NCBI RefSeq assembly: GCF_008087625.1
Contig: NZ_CP042997.1
Location: forward strand, 8,308,001-8,372,000
Direction of reading: 5' to 3'
Length of the DNA stretch: 64,000 bases
DNA from: Aquisphaera giovannonii
Lineage (GTDB): Bacteria > Planctomycetota > Planctomycetia > Isosphaerales > Isosphaeraceae
The notes below the pieces were generated by a model that worked only from the letters and a program-made list of their open reading frames with translations, searched no databases and was not told where the DNA came from. Of this stretch, positions 552 through 48,291 are shown in pieces. Each line of letters starts with the position of its first letter. Positions within the stretch are counted from its first letter, which is position 1. A program made the translations under genes and the position numbers.

Positions 552-2615
552 TCAGCCCTGGGCGGTGAGCGCCGCGGGGGCCGGCTTCGAGGCGGCCCCG
601 TTGGCATGCCCGTTGGCCCTCTCGGCGGCGCCGTTGGCACCGGACGCCTGGACCGGCGCGTGGCCGTCCAGGTCGGCGTCGTGTTCGGCCTCCGCCTCGG
701 GGTCGAGGTCCGGGACGTGCAGGCCGGCACGCCGGGCCTGGTCGAGCGCCGCGCGGACGATGCCGTCGACGTCCAGGCCCACCTCCGCGAGCTGCTCGTC
801 GCGCTCGGCGTGGAGGACGAAGCGGTCCGGCAGGCCCAGCCGCCGGACGTGGGCCGCGGGGATGCCCGCGTCGCCGGCCGCCTCCAGGACGGCCGAGCCG
901 AAGCCCCCCATCAGGCACCCCTCCTCGACCGTCAGGACGAACGCCGCCTCCTCGATGGCCTTGCAGACGACGTTGCGGTCCAGCGGCTTGACGAACCGGG
1001 CGTTGACCACGCCCACCCGCAGGCCGTACCGCTCGCGGAGCCGATCCGAGGCCCGGACGCAGGCGCCCAGCAGGGCGCCGCAGGCGAGGATCATCCCGTC
1101 GGTCTCCCACTCGAGGACCTCGGCCTGGCCCAGCTCGATCGGCTGCGGCTCGCGGTCCACGGCCTCGAGGCCGGCCCTCGGGTAGCGGATCGAGACCGGG
1201 GAGTCGTGCCCCAGCGCGAACTCGATCATCGGCTCGACGTCGCGCTGGTCGCCCGGCGCCATGACCACCATGTTGGGGAAGACCCGCATGGAGGCGAGGT
1301 CGTAGGTGCCGTGGTGCGTCGGCCCGTCGGCCCCGACGAGCCCGGCGCGGTCCAGGCAGAACACGACGGGCAGGTCCTGGAGCGCGACCTCCTGGAAGAT
1401 CTGGTCGTACGACCGCTGGAGGAACGTGCTGTAGATGTCCACGACCGGCCGCGCCCCGGCCTTCGCCATCCCGGCGGCGAACGCCACGGCGTGGCCCTCG
1501 CAGATGCCGACGTCGAAGAACTGGGACGGGTACTCGTCGCGGATCTTCTGGAGCTTGTTCCCCTCGCACATCGCGGCGGTCACGATGGCCACCTTCGGGT
1601 CGCGCCCGCAGGCCGCGTGCAGCGCCGCGCTCACCGCGTCGGTGTAGGTCCGCGACGAGGAGGCCTTCAGCGGGACGTAGCCGTCCTCCGCCTTCCGGAA
1701 CGGCGCGGGGGCGTGGAACTTGACCGGGTCCTTCACCGCCGGCTCGAAGCCGTGCCCCTTGTTGGTCAGGACGTGCAGGAGGATCGGCCCGTCCATCGCC
1801 TTGACCTTCTCGAGGTAGCTCCGCAGCCCCTTCAGGTCGTGGCCGTCGATCGGGCCCAGGTAGGTGAAGCCCAGCTCCTCGAAGAGCATGCCGTGGTTCA
1901 GGGACGCCTTGATCGCGTCCTTGATCTGCTGGACCCAGCGCTCGGCGTGCTCGCCGACGAGCGGGACGCTGGAGACGAGCGACTTCAGCCGCTTGTTCCA
2001 GTCGTGGTAGGTGGACGACATCCGCGCGCGGTCCAGGTAGTTCGCCACACCGCCGACGGGTGGGCATATCGACATCTTATTATCATTGAGGACCACCAGC
2101 ATCTTGGTCCTCAGGCCGCCGGCGTTGTTCAGCGCCTCGAAGACGATCCCCGAGGGGAAGGCGCCGTCGCCGATCACCGCCACGGAGTGGCGCTCCGGGT
2201 GGCCGGTCAGCTCGTCCCCGACGCGCAGGCCCATGGCGGTGGACGGGGCGCAGCCCGCGTGGCCGGTCATGAACAGGTCGAAGGGGCTCTCCGAGGGGTT
2301 GGGGTAGCCCATCAGGCCCCCCTTGGTGCGGATCGTGTGCAGCTCGGCGGCGCGGCCGGTGATGAGCTTGTGCGGATAGATCTGGTGCCCGGTGTCCCAG
2401 ATCAGGCGGTCCCTCGTGAAGTCGAAGGCCTGGTGCAGGGCCAGGCAGAGCTCGACGACGCCGAGGTTGCTGGCGAAGTGGGCCGACCGCCTGCGGACCA
2501 CGCCGATCAGCTCGCTCCGCATCTCCGCGGCGAGCTGCTCGAGGTCCTCGTCCGTGAGCGCCCTCAGGTCCGCCGGCGACGTGATCCTCGCCAGCAGCGA
2601 ATCCGCATTCGTCAT
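552..2615 (-). CDS. dxs: 1-deoxy-D-xylulose-5-phosphate synthase
   Basis: Thiamine-diphosphate enzyme that condenses pyruvate and glyceraldehyde 3-phosphate, first step of the MEP isoprenoid pathway. It has 687 residues; the family is usually 620-640, the excess being a low-complexity Ala/Gly/Asn/His C-terminal tail of about 55 residues. Visible are the ThDP motif (GDG at about residue 148 to NDNK at about 178), the DxGHQIYPHKLITGR region near residue 75 and the transketolase core with DRAGLVGADGPTHHG. The start is ATG at 2615, preceded by GGAAAGGGACC, and overlaps the stop of the upstream prenyl synthase by one base (TGATG), which suggests translational coupling. Supplies precursors for the product of the upstream gene. 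Confidence 0.95.
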   Translation of the reverse strand: MTNADSLLARITSPADLRALTDEDLEQLAAEMRSELIGVVRRRSAHFASNLGVVELCLALHQAFDFTRDRLIWDTGHQIYPHKLITGRAAELHTIRTKGGLMGYPNPSESPFDLFMTGHAGCAPSTAMGLRVGDELTGHPERHSVAVIGDGAFPSGIVFEALNNAGGLRTKMLVVLNDNKMSICPPVGGVANYLDRARMSSTYHDWNKRLKSLVSSVPLVGEHAERWVQQIKDAIKASLNHGMLFEELGFTYLGPIDGHDLKGLRSYLEKVKAMDGPILLHVLTNKGHGFEPAVKDPVKFHAPAPFRKAEDGYVPLKASSSRTYTDAVSAALHAACGRDPKVAIVTAAMCEGNKLQKIRDEYPSQFFDVGICEGHAVAFAAGMAKAGARPVVDIYSTFLQRSYDQIFQEVALQDLPVVFCLDRAGLVGADGPTHHGTYDLASMRVFPNMVVMAPGDQRDVEPMIEFALGHDSPVSIRYPRAGLEAVDREPQPIELGQAEVLEWETDGMILACGALLGACVRASDRLRERYGLRVGVVNARFVKPLDRNVVCKAIEEAAFVLTVEEGCLMGGFGSAVLEAAGDAGIPAAHVRRLGLPDRFVLHAERDEQLAEVGLDVDGIVRAALDQARRAGLHVPDLDPEAEAEHDADLDGHAPVQASGANGAAERANGHANGAASKPAPAALTAQG

Positions 2616-41703: not shown

Positions 41704-42767
41704 GCACGCCGAATCCCCTGCGCGGCCTCTTCCACTGGAAGTTCGCCTTCTACCAGCTCCTCCTGCCGGCCATCCGGGCTCTTGGCCCCGGGCGGGCCGA
41801 CGCGATCCTCTGCGCCCTGGGCAAGGCCCACGCCCGGTCCTGGCCGCCCCGCCGCAGGGCCCTCCACGCGGCGCTGGAGGCGGCCGGCGAGGTCCTCGAC
41901 CTGGGCCCGACCGACGGCCCCGACGGCGGGCCCCCGCCCTCGGCCTGGCCCGACCTGGCCGCCGGCGCCTGCCGCATGCTGGCCCGCGACTACCTGCTGG
42001 ATACCCGGACCGATCGCGAGGCCCTCGGCCGGTTCGAGGTCCGCGGCGAGGGGGCCCTCCGCCGCGCCGGCGAGTCCGACCGCGGGGCGATCCTCGTGGG
42101 CAGCCACTTCGGGGCGCACATCGCGGGCCTGCACTGGCTCTTCCGCTCCGGGCTCCCGGTCCGCGCCCTGGTCCAGCGGCCGCCGCACGTCTCGAGGACG
42201 CTCGGGCGGTACTTCGACGACCTCCAGCCGGCCGGCACCGATGAGGACCTCTTCCTCCGCCGCGGCCTCGCGCCCGACGCCGCCGTCGGCATCCTGCTCC
42301 GCGCCCGCGCCGCGATCCGCCGGGGCCGGATGGTCTACCTCTGCGGCGACATCCCCTGGGAGGGAGCCAACACCCTCAAGGGCCGGCTCCTCGGCCGCGA
42401 GCACCGCCTCCTCTCGATCTGGACCGACCTCGCCGCGCTGCTGGGCGTCCCCGTCTTCCACGTCTTCTGCACGCACCTCCCCGGCGGCCGCTACCGCCTG
42501 GACATCGACGACGTCGGCCGGGTCCGCCACGGCGAGGAACGCGAGGCCCTCGCCGATTACCTGAAGAACCTCGAGGGCCGCATCGCCGCCCGCCCCGACC
42601 AGGCCGCCGCCCACCTCCTCTGGCCCTGCTACCACCCGGCCGAAGGCCCCCCCGCCGCCTCGCCGAATCCCGACCCCACCTCAACCCCAAGGCCCAGCCG
42701 AAGGAAGCCCGCTCGCGGTCCCAGGTCCGGCTCACCGAGCCGGGAGGGCCATATCCGCCGGCCTTGA
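41700..42767 (+). CDS. LpxL-like lysophospholipid/lipid A-type acyltransferase
   Basis: 355 residues. SHFGAHIAGLHWLFRSGLPVRAL is the start of the LpxL/HtrB acyltransferase fold (the usual HFGNWE is altered to HFGAHI, so the HxxxxD/E motif is imperfect), and GRMVYLCGDIPWEGANTLKGRLLG resembles the second LpxL block. The best start is TTG at 41700, with GGGGAAGG upstream, overlapping the previous stop (TTGA). The last 50 residues are Pro/Arg-rich. Final gene of the four-gene cluster. Donor and acceptor are unknown. Confidence 0.75.
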   Translation: MSTPNPLRGLFHWKFAFYQLLLPAIRALGPGRADAILCALGKAHARSWPPRRRALHAALEAAGEVLDLGPTDGPDGGPPPSAWPDLAAGACRMLARDYLLDTRTDREALGRFEVRGEGALRRAGESDRGAILVGSHFGAHIAGLHWLFRSGLPVRALVQRPPHVSRTLGRYFDDLQPAGTDEDLFLRRGLAPDAAVGILLRARAAIRRGRMVYLCGDIPWEGANTLKGRLLGREHRLLSIWTDLAALLGVPVFHVFCTHLPGGRYRLDIDDVGRVRHGEEREALADYLKNLEGRIAARPDQAAAHLLWPCYHPAEGPPAASPNPDPTSTPRPSRRKPARGPRSGSPSREGHIRRP

Positions 42768-43245
42768 TCGCCTCCGTGGCGACAGACAACCCCAGGCCAT
42801 CCATGTCGCCCTTGTGCTCGCTTCGTGGGTTCGGTCGTCGCCCGGACGATCAAACCCAATGCGCCGCTTGTCCTTTACCACCAGGCATTTACACCAAACC
42901 ATCCGGGCTTACCTCGGGGATGCATGCGCTAGATTCGAGCTTGCTGCGCGGTCGTCTCCCTGCCTCATCATCCACCAGCACCCTGCCTGATACCTCGAGC
43001 GAGGGCTGGCCGACGAACAGGAACGGGGAGGCACCACGGCGTCACTTGATCGACTCCGCCCGCGCGTCGGCGTCCATTGCGCCGCGTGGGTCCACTCGTC
43101 CCGCGGATTGTCGCAGCAATAATGACGCTTCTATCAATCCGGAAACGATTTACATTCGATAAAAATTGGCTCCTCCGGCATCGTCCCGAAGGACTTCGTA
43201 GCCATCACGGGGAGGTCGATAGTTGGCACCACCTCGCATGCACGG

Positions 43246-43439
43246 GTGACCACGATCGTCAGATCGTGGTTCGGACGGGCGAAGCCTCCAGCCTCCGGCG
43301 TCAGCCGGATCCGGGGGGCCAGCCTCGGCCCGCGGGAGGAGCCTCGTCCTCGCTTCCATGCCCCGGGGCCCCGGGTCGCACTGACGTGCGAGGCTGGAGG
43401 CTTCGCCCGTCCGAACCACCCGCTCACGCGGGTGGTCAC
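43246..43439. repeat. REPIN-like inverted repeat pair
   Basis: Arms 43266-43295 and 43390-43419 are perfect 30-base inverted copies (GTTCGGACGGGCGAAGCCTC is part of the first). The flanks are also inverted copies, with GTGACCAC (43246-43253) facing GTGGTCAC (43432-43439). Between each flank and arm lies a different 12-base insert that is itself a hairpin: GATC-GTCA-GATC on the left, and on the right CCGC/GCGG around a TCAC loop. The 94-base interior is unique. Two facing REP sequences of this kind form a REPIN. Confidence 0.85.
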
Positions 43440-43943
43440 GTGTCCATGGATTCCCCGGCGAAGTGTGAAGTTGGGGCTCGAGCATTCGGGACGATCCCGC
43501 TCCGCCCCCCCTCGCGAGCGAGGACTGCGGTCCAGCGTGCCCCAACGAGGCATCAACCGATCCCCTTTCCGCACCGACGATCGAATTGTCAAAGAGACCG
43601 TCGGCGCCCTCGCGCCGGATCGACGAGGAGCCCTCGGATACGATCCACGCCGTAGCGTCCCGGGTTTCCGCGGGCGCACGGGGAATTTTCGCGGGGCCGC
43701 GTTCTTCGGGCCGGCAATCCCCAGATCCTCCCGCCGTCGACGATGCCGGCGTGCACTTGCTCTATAAGAGACCAGCGCTAGGTTTACCCGTTTTCGCACA
43801 CGGCCCGGCAGATTTCTCGGATTTCGTCTCGGGTGAAACCGGCGCGAGGTTCGCGATCCGACAGCTCCCCCATGCCTTGCCTCTTGCTTCGACGCGACTC
43901 ATCCCTTCAGCCCTCCAGCCACAAAACCGCAGCCAAACGCCCG

Positions 43944-44835: not shown

Positions 44836-45528
44836 TCAGGGCATCGCCTTCGGCGGCCGGCCGCGCGGCCTGGGATGCGGGTCGATGCCCAGCCGTGCGG
44901 CCATGCGTTCGCCCCAGGCGGCGTCGCCGTACGGCCGGCCCGATCGCAGCGAGGCCCGGATGGCGTCGAGCTCGTCCTGCTTCTGCGCGGCGCGGACCTT
45001 CGCCGCCCATCGCTTCCGGCGGGCCGACTCAGTGGCGCCCAGGTCGTCCCACTCGGGGAACGGGCTGAGCAGCCCGTCGGGCCGGCCCAGCCCGTGCTGC
45101 AGGAAGCTCGACCAGGGGTAGTCGGCCGGGTCGCTCACCATCCCGGCCCGCAGCGGGTTGGCCTCGATGTACCGCAGCACCGTCAGCAGGTGGTCGCCGT
45201 CCTGCACGACCGGGCCGCGGAATCGCCCCTGCCAGACGTGCCCCGACGAGCGATGCCGCCGGTGGTATCGCCAGGTGTGCGCCACGGTGATCGACTGCAG
45301 GATCCGGCTGATGCTCCGCCCCGGCTCGGGCTTCAGCAGGAGGTGGAAGTGGTTGGTCATCAGGCAGTAGCCGAGGAGCCGGAACGGGTACCTCTCGCGG
45401 GTCTTGGCCAGCGCGTCGAGGAAGGCCCGGCGGTCGTCGTCGTCATCGAAGACGTCCGCCCTGTTGTTCCCGCGATTGATCGCGTGGTAGACCAGATCGT
45501 CATCGATCGGACGTGGAGGTCGTCCCAT
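44836..45528 (-). CDS. REP-associated tyrosine transposase (RAYT)
   Basis: 230-residue Y1/HUH nuclease of the IS200-like RAYT group. Motifs: MGRPPRPIDDDLVYHAINRG start, NHFHLLL (HUH) near residue 60, VLRYIEANPLRAG with the catalytic Tyr near residue 118, and a basic Arg-rich C-terminus ending in RGRPPKAMP. RAYTs nick and move REP/REPIN elements in single-stranded form. ATG at 45528. Its flank (45543-45580) carries CCCCGAG and CTGACACC words that resemble the repeats near 49.5 kb. Confidence 0.88.
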   Translation of the reverse strand: MGRPPRPIDDDLVYHAINRGNNRADVFDDDDDRRAFLDALAKTRERYPFRLLGYCLMTNHFHLLLKPEPGRSISRILQSITVAHTWRYHRRHRSSGHVWQGRFRGPVVQDGDHLLTVLRYIEANPLRAGMVSDPADYPWSSFLQHGLGRPDGLLSPFPEWDDLGATESARRKRWAAKVRAAQKQDELDAIRASLRSGRPYGDAAWGERMAARLGIDPHPRPRGRPPKAMP

Positions 45529-45698: not shown

Positions 45699-46286
45699 AT
45701 GCCGCCTGCGCTTTTCTCGGATTTATCAAGCGATGAGGCTCGGATTAAGCCGATTAGATACGCGGTCTCCGGTCGCCCAAGCTTATGTGCAGCGACCCTC
45801 ACGCTTCTCACCGCTCCAGCATTTCTTTGTGTTCTTGTCGTGTGCGTCAGAGGGAGCGAAGAGCCAAAGGCGAGCAAACCAAACGATCTACAATCGTTTC
45901 AGGGGAGGTGGAAGATTGAATCGCTCAGTGCCAATGGGAAGCGACTGCCACTAGGGTTAGCGGGAATTGATCTGTCGAAGTTTGATTTAGTGATCAAAGG
46001 TGATAGCTGGCTCAGTATATCTGATGATGAAAATCATCCGAAAAAGTTGTATTCTATCGAGCTGTTTGCAGATCGTAATCCCAAGGAGATGAATCTCGTT
46101 GACCATGCCAGCGGAGAAACCCTGCGGGGTATTTATGAGGTAAAGAAGCAGACGCTAAAAATCTGCCTTTGCGCAGACCGCTCTCTTGGCGTACGGCCCA
46201 GATCATTTTCAAGTAGTCAAAATGAACCATATATGCTAATGGAATATTCAAGGAGGGTCGATGAAAAGAGCCAAGGTGGACGATAA
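45699..46286 (+). CDS. TIGR03067-domain protein, low G+C
   Basis: 195 residues with a membrane/signal segment (LTLLTAPAFLCVLVVCV) after a 30-residue N-terminal region. DLQSFQGRWKIESLSANGKRLP is the start of TIGR03067, a planctomycete-abundant lipocalin-like domain of unknown role, and LRGIYEVKKQTLKICL is its later block. The gene is far less G+C-rich than the rest of the window, with unusual codon use, so it is probably acquired. A perfect AGGAGG lies six bases before ATG 45699. It sits between two RAYT genes. Confidence 0.8.
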   Translation: MPPALFSDLSSDEARIKPIRYAVSGRPSLCAATLTLLTAPAFLCVLVVCVRGSEEPKASKPNDLQSFQGRWKIESLSANGKRLPLGLAGIDLSKFDLVIKGDSWLSISDDENHPKKLYSIELFADRNPKEMNLVDHASGETLRGIYEVKKQTLKICLCADRSLGVRPRSFSSSQNEPYMLMEYSRRVDEKSQGGR

Positions 46287-46315
46287 ATCTGGAGGGGCGG
46301 ATAAAGTCAGGAAAG

Positions 46316-46486
46316 CAGAGAAAGGGTGTCAACAGAGAAAGGACAGAGAAAGGGTGGACAGAGAAAGGGTGGACAGAGAAAGGGTGTCAGACAGAGAAAG
46401 GGTGGACAGAGAAAGGGTGTCAGGAGAAAGGGTGTCAGGAACCGATATCTTGGACAGAGAAAGGGTGTCAGGAACCGATATCTTGA
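46316..46486 (+). repeat. minisatellite of AGAGAAAGGGTG-type units
   Basis: About eight units of 15-18 bases built on ACAGAGAAAGGGT, with variants GGACAGAGAAAGGGT, GTCAGACAGAGAAAGGGT and GTCAGGAGAAAGGGT. It merges into the REP-like words GGGTGTCAGGAACCGATATC, present at 46426-46452 and 46459-46485, so the array is likely an expansion of the RAYT left end. Confidence 0.75.
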
Positions 46487-46517
46487 CGGGGCGGGTCGAT
46501 GCCGGTAGCCTGGGGGT

Positions 46518-46667
46518 ATGGGACGACCGCATCGCGCCGCCGAGGGCGGCATCATCTATCACGCCCTGAACCGCGCCAACGGCCGATTTGGCATCTTCGA
46601 GGACGCCGGCGACTACGACGCCTTCCTCAAGGCGGGCAAGAAAGGGTGTCAGGAACCGATATCTTGA
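46518..46667 (+). pseudogene. truncated duplicate of the RAYT 5' end
   Basis: Bases 46452-46640 repeat the left end and first 38 codons of the intact gene at 46699 with few differences (offset 181 bases). The copy begins MGRPHRAAEGGIIYHALNRA and diverges after DAFLK, running into the next repeat head and stopping at 46667 (49 residues). It is a partial tandem duplication. Confidence 0.85.
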
Positions 46668-47388
46668 CGGGGCGGTTCGATGCCGCTAGGCTGCGGATAT
46701 GGGACGACCGCATCGCGCCGCGGAGGGCGGCATCATCTATCATGCCCTGAACCGCGCCAACGGCCGCCTGGGCATCTTCGAGGACGCGGGCGATTACGAC
46801 GCCTTCCTCAAGGTGCTCTCCGAGGCCGTCGATCGTCACCGCATGCGGCTGCTGGCCTACTGCGTGATGCCCAACCACTTCCACCTGATGCTCTGGCCGC
46901 GGGAGGACGGCGAGCTGTCGCGGTTCATGCGCTGGCTGACGCTCACCCACACCCAGCGGTGGCATGCCCACCGTCGTTCGGCCGGCTCCGGGCACGTGTA
47001 CCAGGGGCGGTTCAAGTCGTTCCCCGTCTCCGGCGACGAGCACCTGCTGGCGGCCTGCCGTTACGTGGAGCGCAACGCCCTGCGGGCGAACCTGGTGGCG
47101 CGGGCGGAGCACTGGCGGTGGGGGAGCCTAGCGCGGCGCGTCGAGCCGGCGGGGGCGGGCCCGCTGCTGAGCGACTGGCCGATCGAGCGGCCGGCCGACT
47201 GGGTGGAGCGGGTCAACGCGGCGCTGAGCCCTGCGGAGGAGGAGGCGATGCAGAGGAGCCTGCGCCGGGGCTGCCCCTATGGCCCCCCGGGATGGCGGGA
47301 GGAGATGGTGGAGCGACTGGGCCTGGGATCGACGGTGCGGCCGACAGGGCGCCCCAAAAAACCGAAAATCGGTTCCTGACACCCTTTC
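46640..47388 (+). mobile_element. RAYT unit bounded by 21-base inverted repeats
   Basis: The word GGGTGTCAGGAACCGAT and four bases before it (46640-46660) is found inverted at 47368-47388, the last bases of which include the RAYT stop region. The unit is 749 bases, holds one RAYT gene, and its right end abuts the broken end of an IS5-type transposase gene at about 47393. Confidence 0.75.
46699..47379 (+). CDS. REP-associated tyrosine transposase (RAYT), second copy
   Basis: 226 residues, Y1/HUH nuclease. Motifs: MGRPHRAAEGGIIYHALNRA, MPNHFHLML near residue 57, ACRYVERNALRANLV with the active Tyr near residue 117, and a C-terminal GRPKKPKIGS. It differs clearly from the RAYT at 44836-45528, so it is another subfamily rather than a recent copy. 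The stop codon lies inside the right inverted repeat, so repeat and gene end are linked. An N-terminal fragment of the same gene lies directly upstream. Confidence 0.9.
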   Translation: MGRPHRAAEGGIIYHALNRANGRLGIFEDAGDYDAFLKVLSEAVDRHRMRLLAYCVMPNHFHLMLWPREDGELSRFMRWLTLTHTQRWHAHRRSAGSGHVYQGRFKSFPVSGDEHLLAACRYVERNALRANLVARAEHWRWGSLARRVEPAGAGPLLSDWPIERPADWVERVNAALSPAEEEAMQRSLRRGCPYGPPGWREEMVERLGLGSTVRPTGRPKKPKIGS

Positions 47389-47392
47389 CTGG

Positions 47393-47814
47393 CTCGAGGT
47401 AGTTGATGTCGCTCTTCTCATACCTCACCAGCAGGCCGCGACACTTCGAGAGCCAGGCGAAGGTGCGCTCCACGACCCAGCGCCGCGGCTTGTGGCCCTT
47501 CGAGGTGTCGACGGCCTTCTCCTCCTCGCCGATGCGGCGGATGTGCGGCGCGTATCCGGCGGCGGTCGCCGCCTCCTCCGAGCGGGGATCGTCATATCCC
47601 TTGTCAAGGCAGAGGTTCTGCGGCTCGTCGGCCGACGGCTCGGGCCTCTCGACGACGATCGCCTCGAGGGTCTCGGCCAGGAGTCTCTGCTCCACGACGT
47701 TGGCCCCGGCGATCACCACCCCCAGCGGCCCGCCATCGGCGTCGGTCAGCAGGCCCTTCTTGGTGCCCTCCTTGCCGCGGTCGGTGGGGTTCCTGCCCGT
47801 CTTTCCCCCCCCCC
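47393..47814 (-). pseudogene. IS5-family transposase, orfB, C-terminus missing
   Basis: Second part in the -1 frame: KTGRNPTDRGKEGTKKGLLT, then LCLDKGYDD (second Asp) and RRWVVERTFAWLSKCR (catalytic Glu). The family normally continues about 15 residues after RYEKSDINYL; here the frame enters the neighbouring RAYT unit after NYLEPG. The C-terminal loss is small, so activity is not excluded, but the IS end itself is gone. Confidence 0.8.
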
Positions 47815-48177
47815 GGACCGGGCCTTGCCCAGCATCGCGTCGGCGCTCTGCCACCTCCAATCCCCCCCGCCGAGCTCGTCGCATTCGGCGAGGATGACCG
47901 CCCAGATCTCCTCCAGGACGCCCCCCTCGGCCCATCGCCGGAACCAGCCGTGGACGGTGCTCTTGGGCCCGAACCGCTCCGGGAGCTGACCCCACTGGCA
48001 GCCGCTGCGCATCCGGAAGATGATGCCTTCGAGCATCCTCCGCCACTCGGCCGGCGGTCGCCCCGTCGCCTTGGCGGGCCAGAACTCCAGGAGGGTCGGC
48101 TCGATCCTGGCCCACAGCTCATCGGGGATCTCCCGGATCGTCTCCAGCGGCGGGACTTGCGTCTTCCGGCGAGCCAT
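47746..48177 (-). CDS. IS5-family transposase, orfA
   Basis: First part of the transposase: MARRKTQVPPLETIREIPDE, then the DUF4096-type domain RPPAEWRRMLEGIIFRMRSG, GQLPERFGPKSTVHGWFRRW and the first catalytic Asp in WQSADAMLGK near residue 117. In its own frame it ends shortly after a run of G; the continuing DDE domain is in the -1 frame, so the full enzyme needs frameshifting at the G run (47805-47814). ATG 48177. Confidence 0.85.
   Translation of the reverse strand: MARRKTQVPPLETIREIPDELWARIEPTLLEFWPAKATGRPPAEWRRMLEGIIFRMRSGCQWGQLPERFGPKSTVHGWFRRWAEGGVLEEIWAVILAECDELGGGDWRWQSADAMLGKARSGGGERRAGTPPTAARRAPRRAC
47802..47814 (-). promoter_or_regulatory. G10-AAA slippery sequence, probable -1 frameshift site
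   Basis: On the minus strand ten G followed by AAAG marks the exact point where orfA and orfB change frame (-1). Homopolymer slippage by ribosome or polymerase is the established mechanism in several IS families. Confidence 0.65.
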
Positions 48178-48291
48178 CTCCGGACCTCCTGGAACGGCCA
48201 CCTCCCTAGCGATGCGATCCCACGACACAAATCGATCAGGCAAAGGGCATTCCGGATCCCAGGGTTCTCGGATGGTTTCTTAACCAGCCCC

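Follow-up and report, generated by a model that had tools for sequence, protein, structure and literature searches.

A widespread REPIN-like element nested in a MITE-like unit of Aquisphaera giovannonii, with an IS200-like gene-bearing relative in Aquisphaera insulae

Elements of the IS200/IS605 family, as described, have no long terminal inverted repeats and insert beside a fixed tetranucleotide without target duplication; their gene-less derivatives with IS200/IS605-type ends are known as PATEs. REPINs, in turn, are inverted doublets of REP sequences tied to RAYT proteins, are described as typically having GT[AG]G feet, and commonly show compensatory changes (PMC6006769; PMC3116915; PMC3733652). 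The authors who defined REPINs report such changes and name the palindromes of an IS200-like element as one possible origin (PMC3116915). In the outline given by the TnpA_Y1 classification, subclass 1.2 generally lacks terminal structures, has no REP tabulated and is found mostly in Cyanobacteria and Bacteroidetes, and class 3 stands between IS and REPtron, counts Planctomycetes among its hosts and is associated with atypical high-copy structures (PMC6006769). A further group, the TIRYTs, is mentioned as Y1 genes with long terminal inverted repeats on either side (PMC3733652).

We analyzed a 64,000-nt stretch of the A. giovannonii genome (contig NZ_CP042997.1, positions 8,308,001 to 8,372,000), hereafter the window, in which positions 43246-43439 consist, in this order, of GTGA, a hairpin, a 25-nt core, a hairpin, 68 nt, a hairpin, the core again, a hairpin and TCAC (Table 1). 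The letters of 43266-43295 and 43390-43419 agree with the two perfect 30-nt inverted arms reported in an earlier note on this DNA, and the 12-base insert which it described as differing between the sides, with each side a perfect hairpin, indeed pairs on both as an 8-bp stem with a 4-nt loop. The inner hairpin within each arm, the larger repeat unit and the inversion of the middle go beyond that description. A repeat search delimited inverted arms of 80 nt that are 79% complementary. Folded as single-stranded DNA, the segment reaches -83 kcal/mol versus -46.6 +/- 3.75 in 200 dinucleotide shuffles (z -9.7), 0 of which reach it, and the 25-nt core has 2 matches within the window versus 0 in each of 100 shuffles.

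Table 1. Coordinates of the nested elements and of neighboring Y1 genes in the window.
Feature	Positions	Strand	Basis or remark
Left target-site duplication GCTCCTCC	43169-43176	.	7/8 bases equal to right flank
322-nt TIR unit (MITE-like) enclosing the hairpin element	43177-43498	.	24-copy conservation borders, TIRs
Left terminal inverted repeat GGCATCGTCCCGAAGG, 16 nt	43177-43192	+	
Left-arm foot GTGA, outer limit of hairpin element	43246-43249	+	sequence just beyond varies with outer unit
Left outer hairpin CCACGATC-GTCA-GATCGTGG, 8-bp stem, 4-nt loop, perfect	43250-43269	+	right-end type stem
Constant 25-nt core TTCGGACGGGCGAAGCCTCCAGCCT	43270-43294	+	
Inner hairpin CCGGC-GTCA-GCCGG, left-end type, side swapped through inverted middle	43295-43308	+	
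Inverted middle of the window copy	43295-43390	.	identity to consensus, both orientations
Inner hairpin CGCAC-GTCA-GTGCG, right-end type	43377-43390	-	
Constant core, second copy	43391-43415	-	
Right outer hairpin CCACCCGC-GTGA-GCGGGTGG, 8-bp stem, 4-nt loop, perfect	43416-43435	-	left-end type stem
Right-arm foot GTGA (TCAC on +)	43436-43439	-	
Right terminal inverted repeat GGGATCGTCCCGAATG on -, 16 nt	43483-43498	-	
Right target-site duplication GCTCCGCC	43499-43506	.	
RAYT-type Y1 gene	44836-45528	-	NF047646; window
RAYT-type Y1 gene	46699-47379	+	NF047646; window

When up to 3 mismatches are allowed, a 22-nt part of the core is matched 102 times in the 10.5-Mb A. giovannonii genome, compared with 2 for the reversed pattern, and these matches occur mostly as inverted pairs; a chance palindrome is therefore ruled out, as it is by the shuffles and the fold energy. 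We built a covariance model of the arm (R1) on alignment A1, which comprises 84 of the 87 distinct arms of A. giovannonii and Aquisphaera insulae JC669, one frame-shifted arm, one arm without the inner hairpin and one false match being omitted. R1 recognizes 118 arms in A. giovannonii, 30 in A. insulae, 66 in an Isosphaeraceae genome of another genus (G006), 13 in G046 and 3 in G047, and at E<=0.001 any match is found in 12 of 45 family genomes, several of the 12 having a single weak match. The earlier note had proposed this genome-wide search, and would have given way had neither the genome nor related strains contained further copies; both contain them. Arms that appeared alone in the core search mostly proved to be paired with an arm differing slightly in length, a few single arms being left (L161, L163), and a search for solo hairpins in the fetched loci returned almost exclusively arms with an altered third base. 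The counts of end types and of terminal inverted repeats (TIRs) given below for A. giovannonii refer to 57 delineated elements, which do not cover all 118 arms. Two copies without a recognizable TIR unit, at 2622454 and 9328318 of contig C1, have a left flank in common, owing either to duplication or to insertion into a further repeat.

The two ends of the element differ. Of the 93 elements delineated in three genomes, 92 combine a single left-type inner hairpin with a single right-type one (56/57 in A. giovannonii, 9/9 in A. insulae and 27/27 in G006), CGCAC marking the right end and CCGGC or CGGGC the left. In the sole exception, 6199120 of A. giovannonii, a further insertion interrupts the right arm. 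Because elements carry one hairpin of each type, the GATC/CCGC stem difference of the window copy is one of end identity and not of compensation within the copy. We also observed a small different element, with the start GAGTCTGT[CT]CC and a near-inverse end, inserted into the loop of the right-end inner hairpin at the identical spot in two genera (L055, A. giovannonii ~6199120-6199508; L300, contig C421 of G006, 301-693); some G006 units are bounded on the outside by similar GAGTCTGTTCC ends.

Compared with the consensus of the other 19 copies of exactly equal spacing, the 96-nt middle of the window copy shows 46% identity as read and 93% as reverse complement; those 19 copies show 90-98% as read. 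The flanks of the window copy keep the usual orientation, and element 8846856 has similarly mixed arms. Exchange between the identical inverted cores would account for this pattern, the middle having flipped later, and candidate agents are host recombination, replication template switching or a transposase.

The stems vary in sequence and retain pairing. Standard pairs fill 96.0% of the pair cells of A1 versus 80.3% after shuffling, with 0 of 500 shuffles as high, and pairing drops to 30-40% when the partners are offset by 1-3 columns. Both-sided changes cluster at three outer-stem and three inner-stem pairs; their counts overstate the number of events, as the stem spellings in A. giovannonii are only a handful. 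For G006 we counted 61 of 63 arms, omitting two truncated ones: 38 of the 61 outer stems are perfect when G-T is allowed, these 38 showing 13 spellings, and 0.898 of positions are paired, against at most 0.775 when 5' and 3' halves are swapped 1000 times; counts on the model-fitted alignment A3 agree. This covariation, which the earlier note had suggested looking for, upholds its claim that structure is kept while sequence changes as far as comparison across copies goes; between the two sides of the window copy, where the claim was originally made, the difference belongs to the heterotypic ends. Since many copies have decayed stems, selection would be best placed on the copies that move rather than on each resident copy. 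A candidate third helix within the core, in which TTCG would pair with CGAA (columns 25-28 and 35-38), was not accepted although 91% paired; one of its four pairs is broken in 14 of the 84 A1 rows.

The hairpin element of the window lies within a larger unit. In 24 copies with near-equal core spacing, conservation reaches about 97 nt beyond the first core on the left and 88 nt beyond the second on the right and falls sharply to background past both borders; the unit ends are inverted repeats near GGNATCGTCCCRAATG. The 8-bp direct-repeat score has a mean of 5.9 in 32 copies versus 1.2 when flanks are mismatched (at most 2.35 in 200 shuffles) and is >=8 in 16 of them, these 32 being the core-paired elements, out of 40, with both TIRs recognizable, and not all independent, as several have one target repeat GCTTCGCCGG and 4874425 and 6229580 share flanks. 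By a fixed criterion, both TIRs are present in 31 of the 57 delineated A. giovannonii elements; mean identity is 0.902 among the TIR-bearing copies versus 0.825 among the others, several of which retain decayed unit flanks. Several A. insulae copies lie inside the same kind of TIR unit as the window copy.

A search of A. giovannonii for an autonomous TIR parent found none, nearly all matches to the TIR pattern being the 322-nt units themselves; three extra matches (568508, 719273, 4813882) are ascribed to chance by a rough estimate. In A. insulae, a 1516-nt element carries an IS4-family transposase (NF033592, 185.1 bits, cut-off 115) between similar 16-nt TIRs, with no target duplication visible at this copy, and represents a candidate parent of the 322-nt unit. 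Several 322-nt units of A. giovannonii (1447004, 6540699, 7557909, 8480998, 5520063, 6514565 and 1039601) occupy a common position within another repeat, near CTCGGTTTTCGAACGGCTTCGCCGG, which is either a preferred target of the outer element or a repeat copied jointly with it. In the window itself, overlapping open reading frames in different frames at 47213-48243 (-) resemble, by eye, pieces of a broken DDE transposase.

The exact TIR of the 322-nt unit is absent from G006. There, the left flank contains GAGTCTGTTCCGG (<=3 mismatches) in 7 of 27 elements versus 9 of 1382 random slices, and GAGA[CG]T[CT]C[TG]CGG (<=2) in 12 of the other 20 versus 28 of 1382, both patterns having been picked after the flanks were seen and the right-hand ends being less clear. 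At least 19 of the 27 G006 pairs are located inside larger repeated units, and one and the same inner element, as these flanks indicate, is found in at least three different outer units. Because it sits in at least three frames, entry by its own movement is favored, though not proven.

Six sites were queried between the two Aquisphaera species. At all 4 that were comparable (16722, 5202647, 4556807 and the L088 site) the flanks are present in the other species but the arms are missing, intergenic divergence at the junctions being too great for base-exact placement, and at the two remaining sites the flanks lie at different places. Synteny of the window with A. insulae ends near 42712, and thus the window's own site is not comparable. 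At L251 of A. giovannonii (~825-870; contig C1 near 5907825-5907870), which matches the site of the A. insulae Y1 element described below, we noted a lone decayed hairpin, GTGGCC...GTGGTTAC, surrounded by letters resembling the unit, perhaps a collapsed copy.

We surveyed 29 Y1-transposase neighborhoods in A. giovannonii, A. insulae, G006 and G047, G046 having no match. R1 arms were detected at one of the 29, locus L170 of A. insulae, some flanks in the survey being cut by contig ends. This 826-nt element consists of an arm at 2041-2103(-), a Y1 open reading frame at 1378-1938(-) and an arm at 1278-1342(+); the arms are inverted, 63-65 nt long and include one end of each type, and a complete gene-less copy adjoins it. 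The encoded protein scores 101.8 bits with the IS200/IS605 model NF033573 (cut-off 55) and 30.4 bits with the RAYT model NF047646 (cut-off 80), and bears the motifs DHVH (HUH) and YIGKQDDHH. Its solved relatives are the IS200/IS605 transposases 2ec2, 2fyx, 2xm3 and ISHp608 2a6m, designed repeat proteins with weak single matching stretches having been set aside. In a 14-row tree, from which 9 of 23 candidate loci without an intact motif pair in one frame were omitted, it groups with ordinary IS200-type proteins with weak support (80/72), apart from the two RAYTs of the window, which pair at 100/99. No homolog of this gene was detected in A. giovannonii at E<=1e-5, and the matching site there (L251) holds the lone decayed hairpin rather than a clean empty site. 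No arms were found beside the Y1 genes of G006 and G047, where some flanks are likewise cut by contig ends.

These observations are best explained, with a probability of about 70%, by two nested mobile elements, a Y1-type inner element within a MITE. The best reading of the inner element is that of a non-autonomous derivative of an IS200/IS605-type Y1 element with REPIN-like architecture. Each of its arms is built of GTGA, an 8-bp hairpin, the 25-nt core and a 5-bp hairpin, with the two ends inverted and the stems marking left and right. On single strands, these hairpins would be recognized by a Y1 transposase like that of A. insulae, which would cut close to the GTGA feet. The outer MITE, with its 16-nt TIRs and 8-bp duplications, would be moved by a DDE transposase, perhaps IS4-like, carrying the inner element along and so acting as the source of most closely related copies. 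Copy number, pairing, heterotypic ends, borders, duplications, the inversion and the presence of one Y1 gene between ends are read from the letters; movement of the inner part by a Y1 protein is suggested by this anatomy and by the single gene-bearing copy, and which element entered which, and how the middle flipped, we infer. Weighing against this explanation is the fact that one gene-bearing copy only was found, in one genome, next to a complete gene-less one. Further points against it are the missing homolog in A. giovannonii, the Y1 genes of G006 and G047 without arms beside them (some flanks being cut by contig ends), the diverged junctions at the comparable sites, the IS4-type copy of A. 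insulae with no visible target duplication, and the long inverted ends, which IS200/IS605 elements as described lack. A further step, which we put forward tentatively and consider possible rather than probable, would make the family an intermediate between IS200/IS605 and REPINs: the ends of an IS200-type transposase would have turned into an inverted pair of double-hairpin arms, and its gene-less derivatives, their stems variable yet paired, would have colonized several genera of the Isosphaeraceae and outlived the gene inside unrelated TIR units, one kind in Aquisphaera and at least two others in the second genus.

The earlier note had taken the element for a RAYT substrate, and a true REPIN mobilized by the products of the two RAYT-type genes that lie 1.4 and 3.3 kb away in the window would indeed be in line with an inverted hairpin pair with a 5' foot and with more than 100 arms, mostly in doublets. 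The two nearby genes score 87.6 and 68.7 bits with NF047646 and share 44% identity over the compared part, and the RAYT model is the best match of all six Y1 genes of A. giovannonii (two above the cut-off, four scored on the domain only). Yet no arms were found in the 1.5-kb flanks of any of the six, the foot is GTGA and not GT[AG]G, the ends are heterotypic, and the only arm-flanked Y1 gene is of IS200 type. RAYT ownership of the arms was rejected over these six genes and 23 in relatives, no cognate RAYT flanked by matching arms being found among the 29 neighborhoods (some cut by contig ends), and we regard such a REPIN as quite improbable. Upstream of the RAYT gene at 46699-47379 we observed several GAGAAAGGGTGTCAGGAACCGATATCTTGACGGGGCGG-like copies and a partial duplicate of the gene start (46280-46760); these copies are perhaps the RAYTs' own REP-like substrate.

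Somewhat less improbable, and still unlikely in our view, is that only the outer DDE-type units are mobile, with the double-hairpin pair as their structural core that never served as a Y1 substrate and that the lone Y1 gene entered. The TIR-bearing copies are the more alike set, decayed unit flanks persist on several of the remaining ones, most G006 pairs likewise lie within larger repeated units, and the junctions are too diverged for an insertion of the inner part to be placed base by base, all of which fits this explanation. Against it, the inner element recurs in at least three outer units and in copies without a recognizable unit, the Y1 gene lies between a left and a right end, the arrangement of the gene-less copies, and hairpins of this kind are expected to have a Y1 gene as their partner. 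The strong fold and covariation could also be expected if the sequence were not a mobile element and the host retained it as a structured RNA gene or a regulatory RNA. We give this very little credence: a known RNA family was sought and Rfam returned no match up to E 1, target duplications are present, the element is missing from all four comparable sites in the sister species, and the stems are decayed in many copies.

The element is thus real, widespread and nested, REPIN-like in form and IS200-like by its only gene-bearing relative. Among the PMC papers searched, none was found to describe such elements in Aquisphaera or Isosphaeraceae. With an enzyme of IS200 type, inverted ends like those of REPINs, and copies both with and without the gene, the family makes it possible to test the idea that REPINs derive from an IS200-like element. 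The stem variants, with 13 spellings in one genome, represent a natural library of what the enzyme reads, and being carried inside TIR units may be how such repeats last beyond the loss of their own transposase.

Compared with REPINs and BIMEs, the element shares an inverted hairpin pair in many copies and mostly as doublets, a 5' tetranucleotide foot, a length of ~145-200 nt and variable paired stems, and to this extent its description as REPIN-like stands. It departs from them in having two hairpins per arm and two different ends instead of two like REPs, in its foot (GTGA in most A1 rows and in 48 of 61 G006 arms, with no GT[AG]G in the other 13), in a partner of IS200/IS605 rather than RAYT type, and in its nesting in TIR units, here one of 322 nt with 8-bp duplications. 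The A. insulae protein, with its HUH (DHVH) and Y---Q motifs and hairpins at both ends, resembles IS200/IS605 elements, i.e., TnpA_Y1 class 1 as outlined in PMC6006769. An IS200-type Y1 HUH transposase between the ends is found at L170 only, and subterminal hairpins are present at both ends; unlike in that family, the ends are long, inverted and contain two hairpins each, and one gene copy stands against tens of gene-less derivatives. With subclass 1.2, as characterized in the same source, the protein shares low copy number and YIGKQDDHH, which fits Y---Q--HH, whereas its W motif is WG and not WQ, terminal structures are present and the tree places it, weakly (80/72), nearer to ordinary IS200 proteins; we do not assign it to this subclass. 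Class 3 is described there with Y----Q and a CnGA foot, in contrast to Y---Q and GTGA here (PMC6006769). The TIRYTs are a close lead and could lower the novelty of these findings (PMC3733652). Gene-less copies and IS200/IS605-type ends recall PATEs, from which the element differs by its long inverted arms. The outer unit, finally, has the TIRs and the fixed 8-bp direct target repeats of DDE-type MITEs, perhaps of the IS4 family, given the IS4-family gene between similar TIRs in A. insulae, and differs from them in carrying a second, Y1-type element inside.
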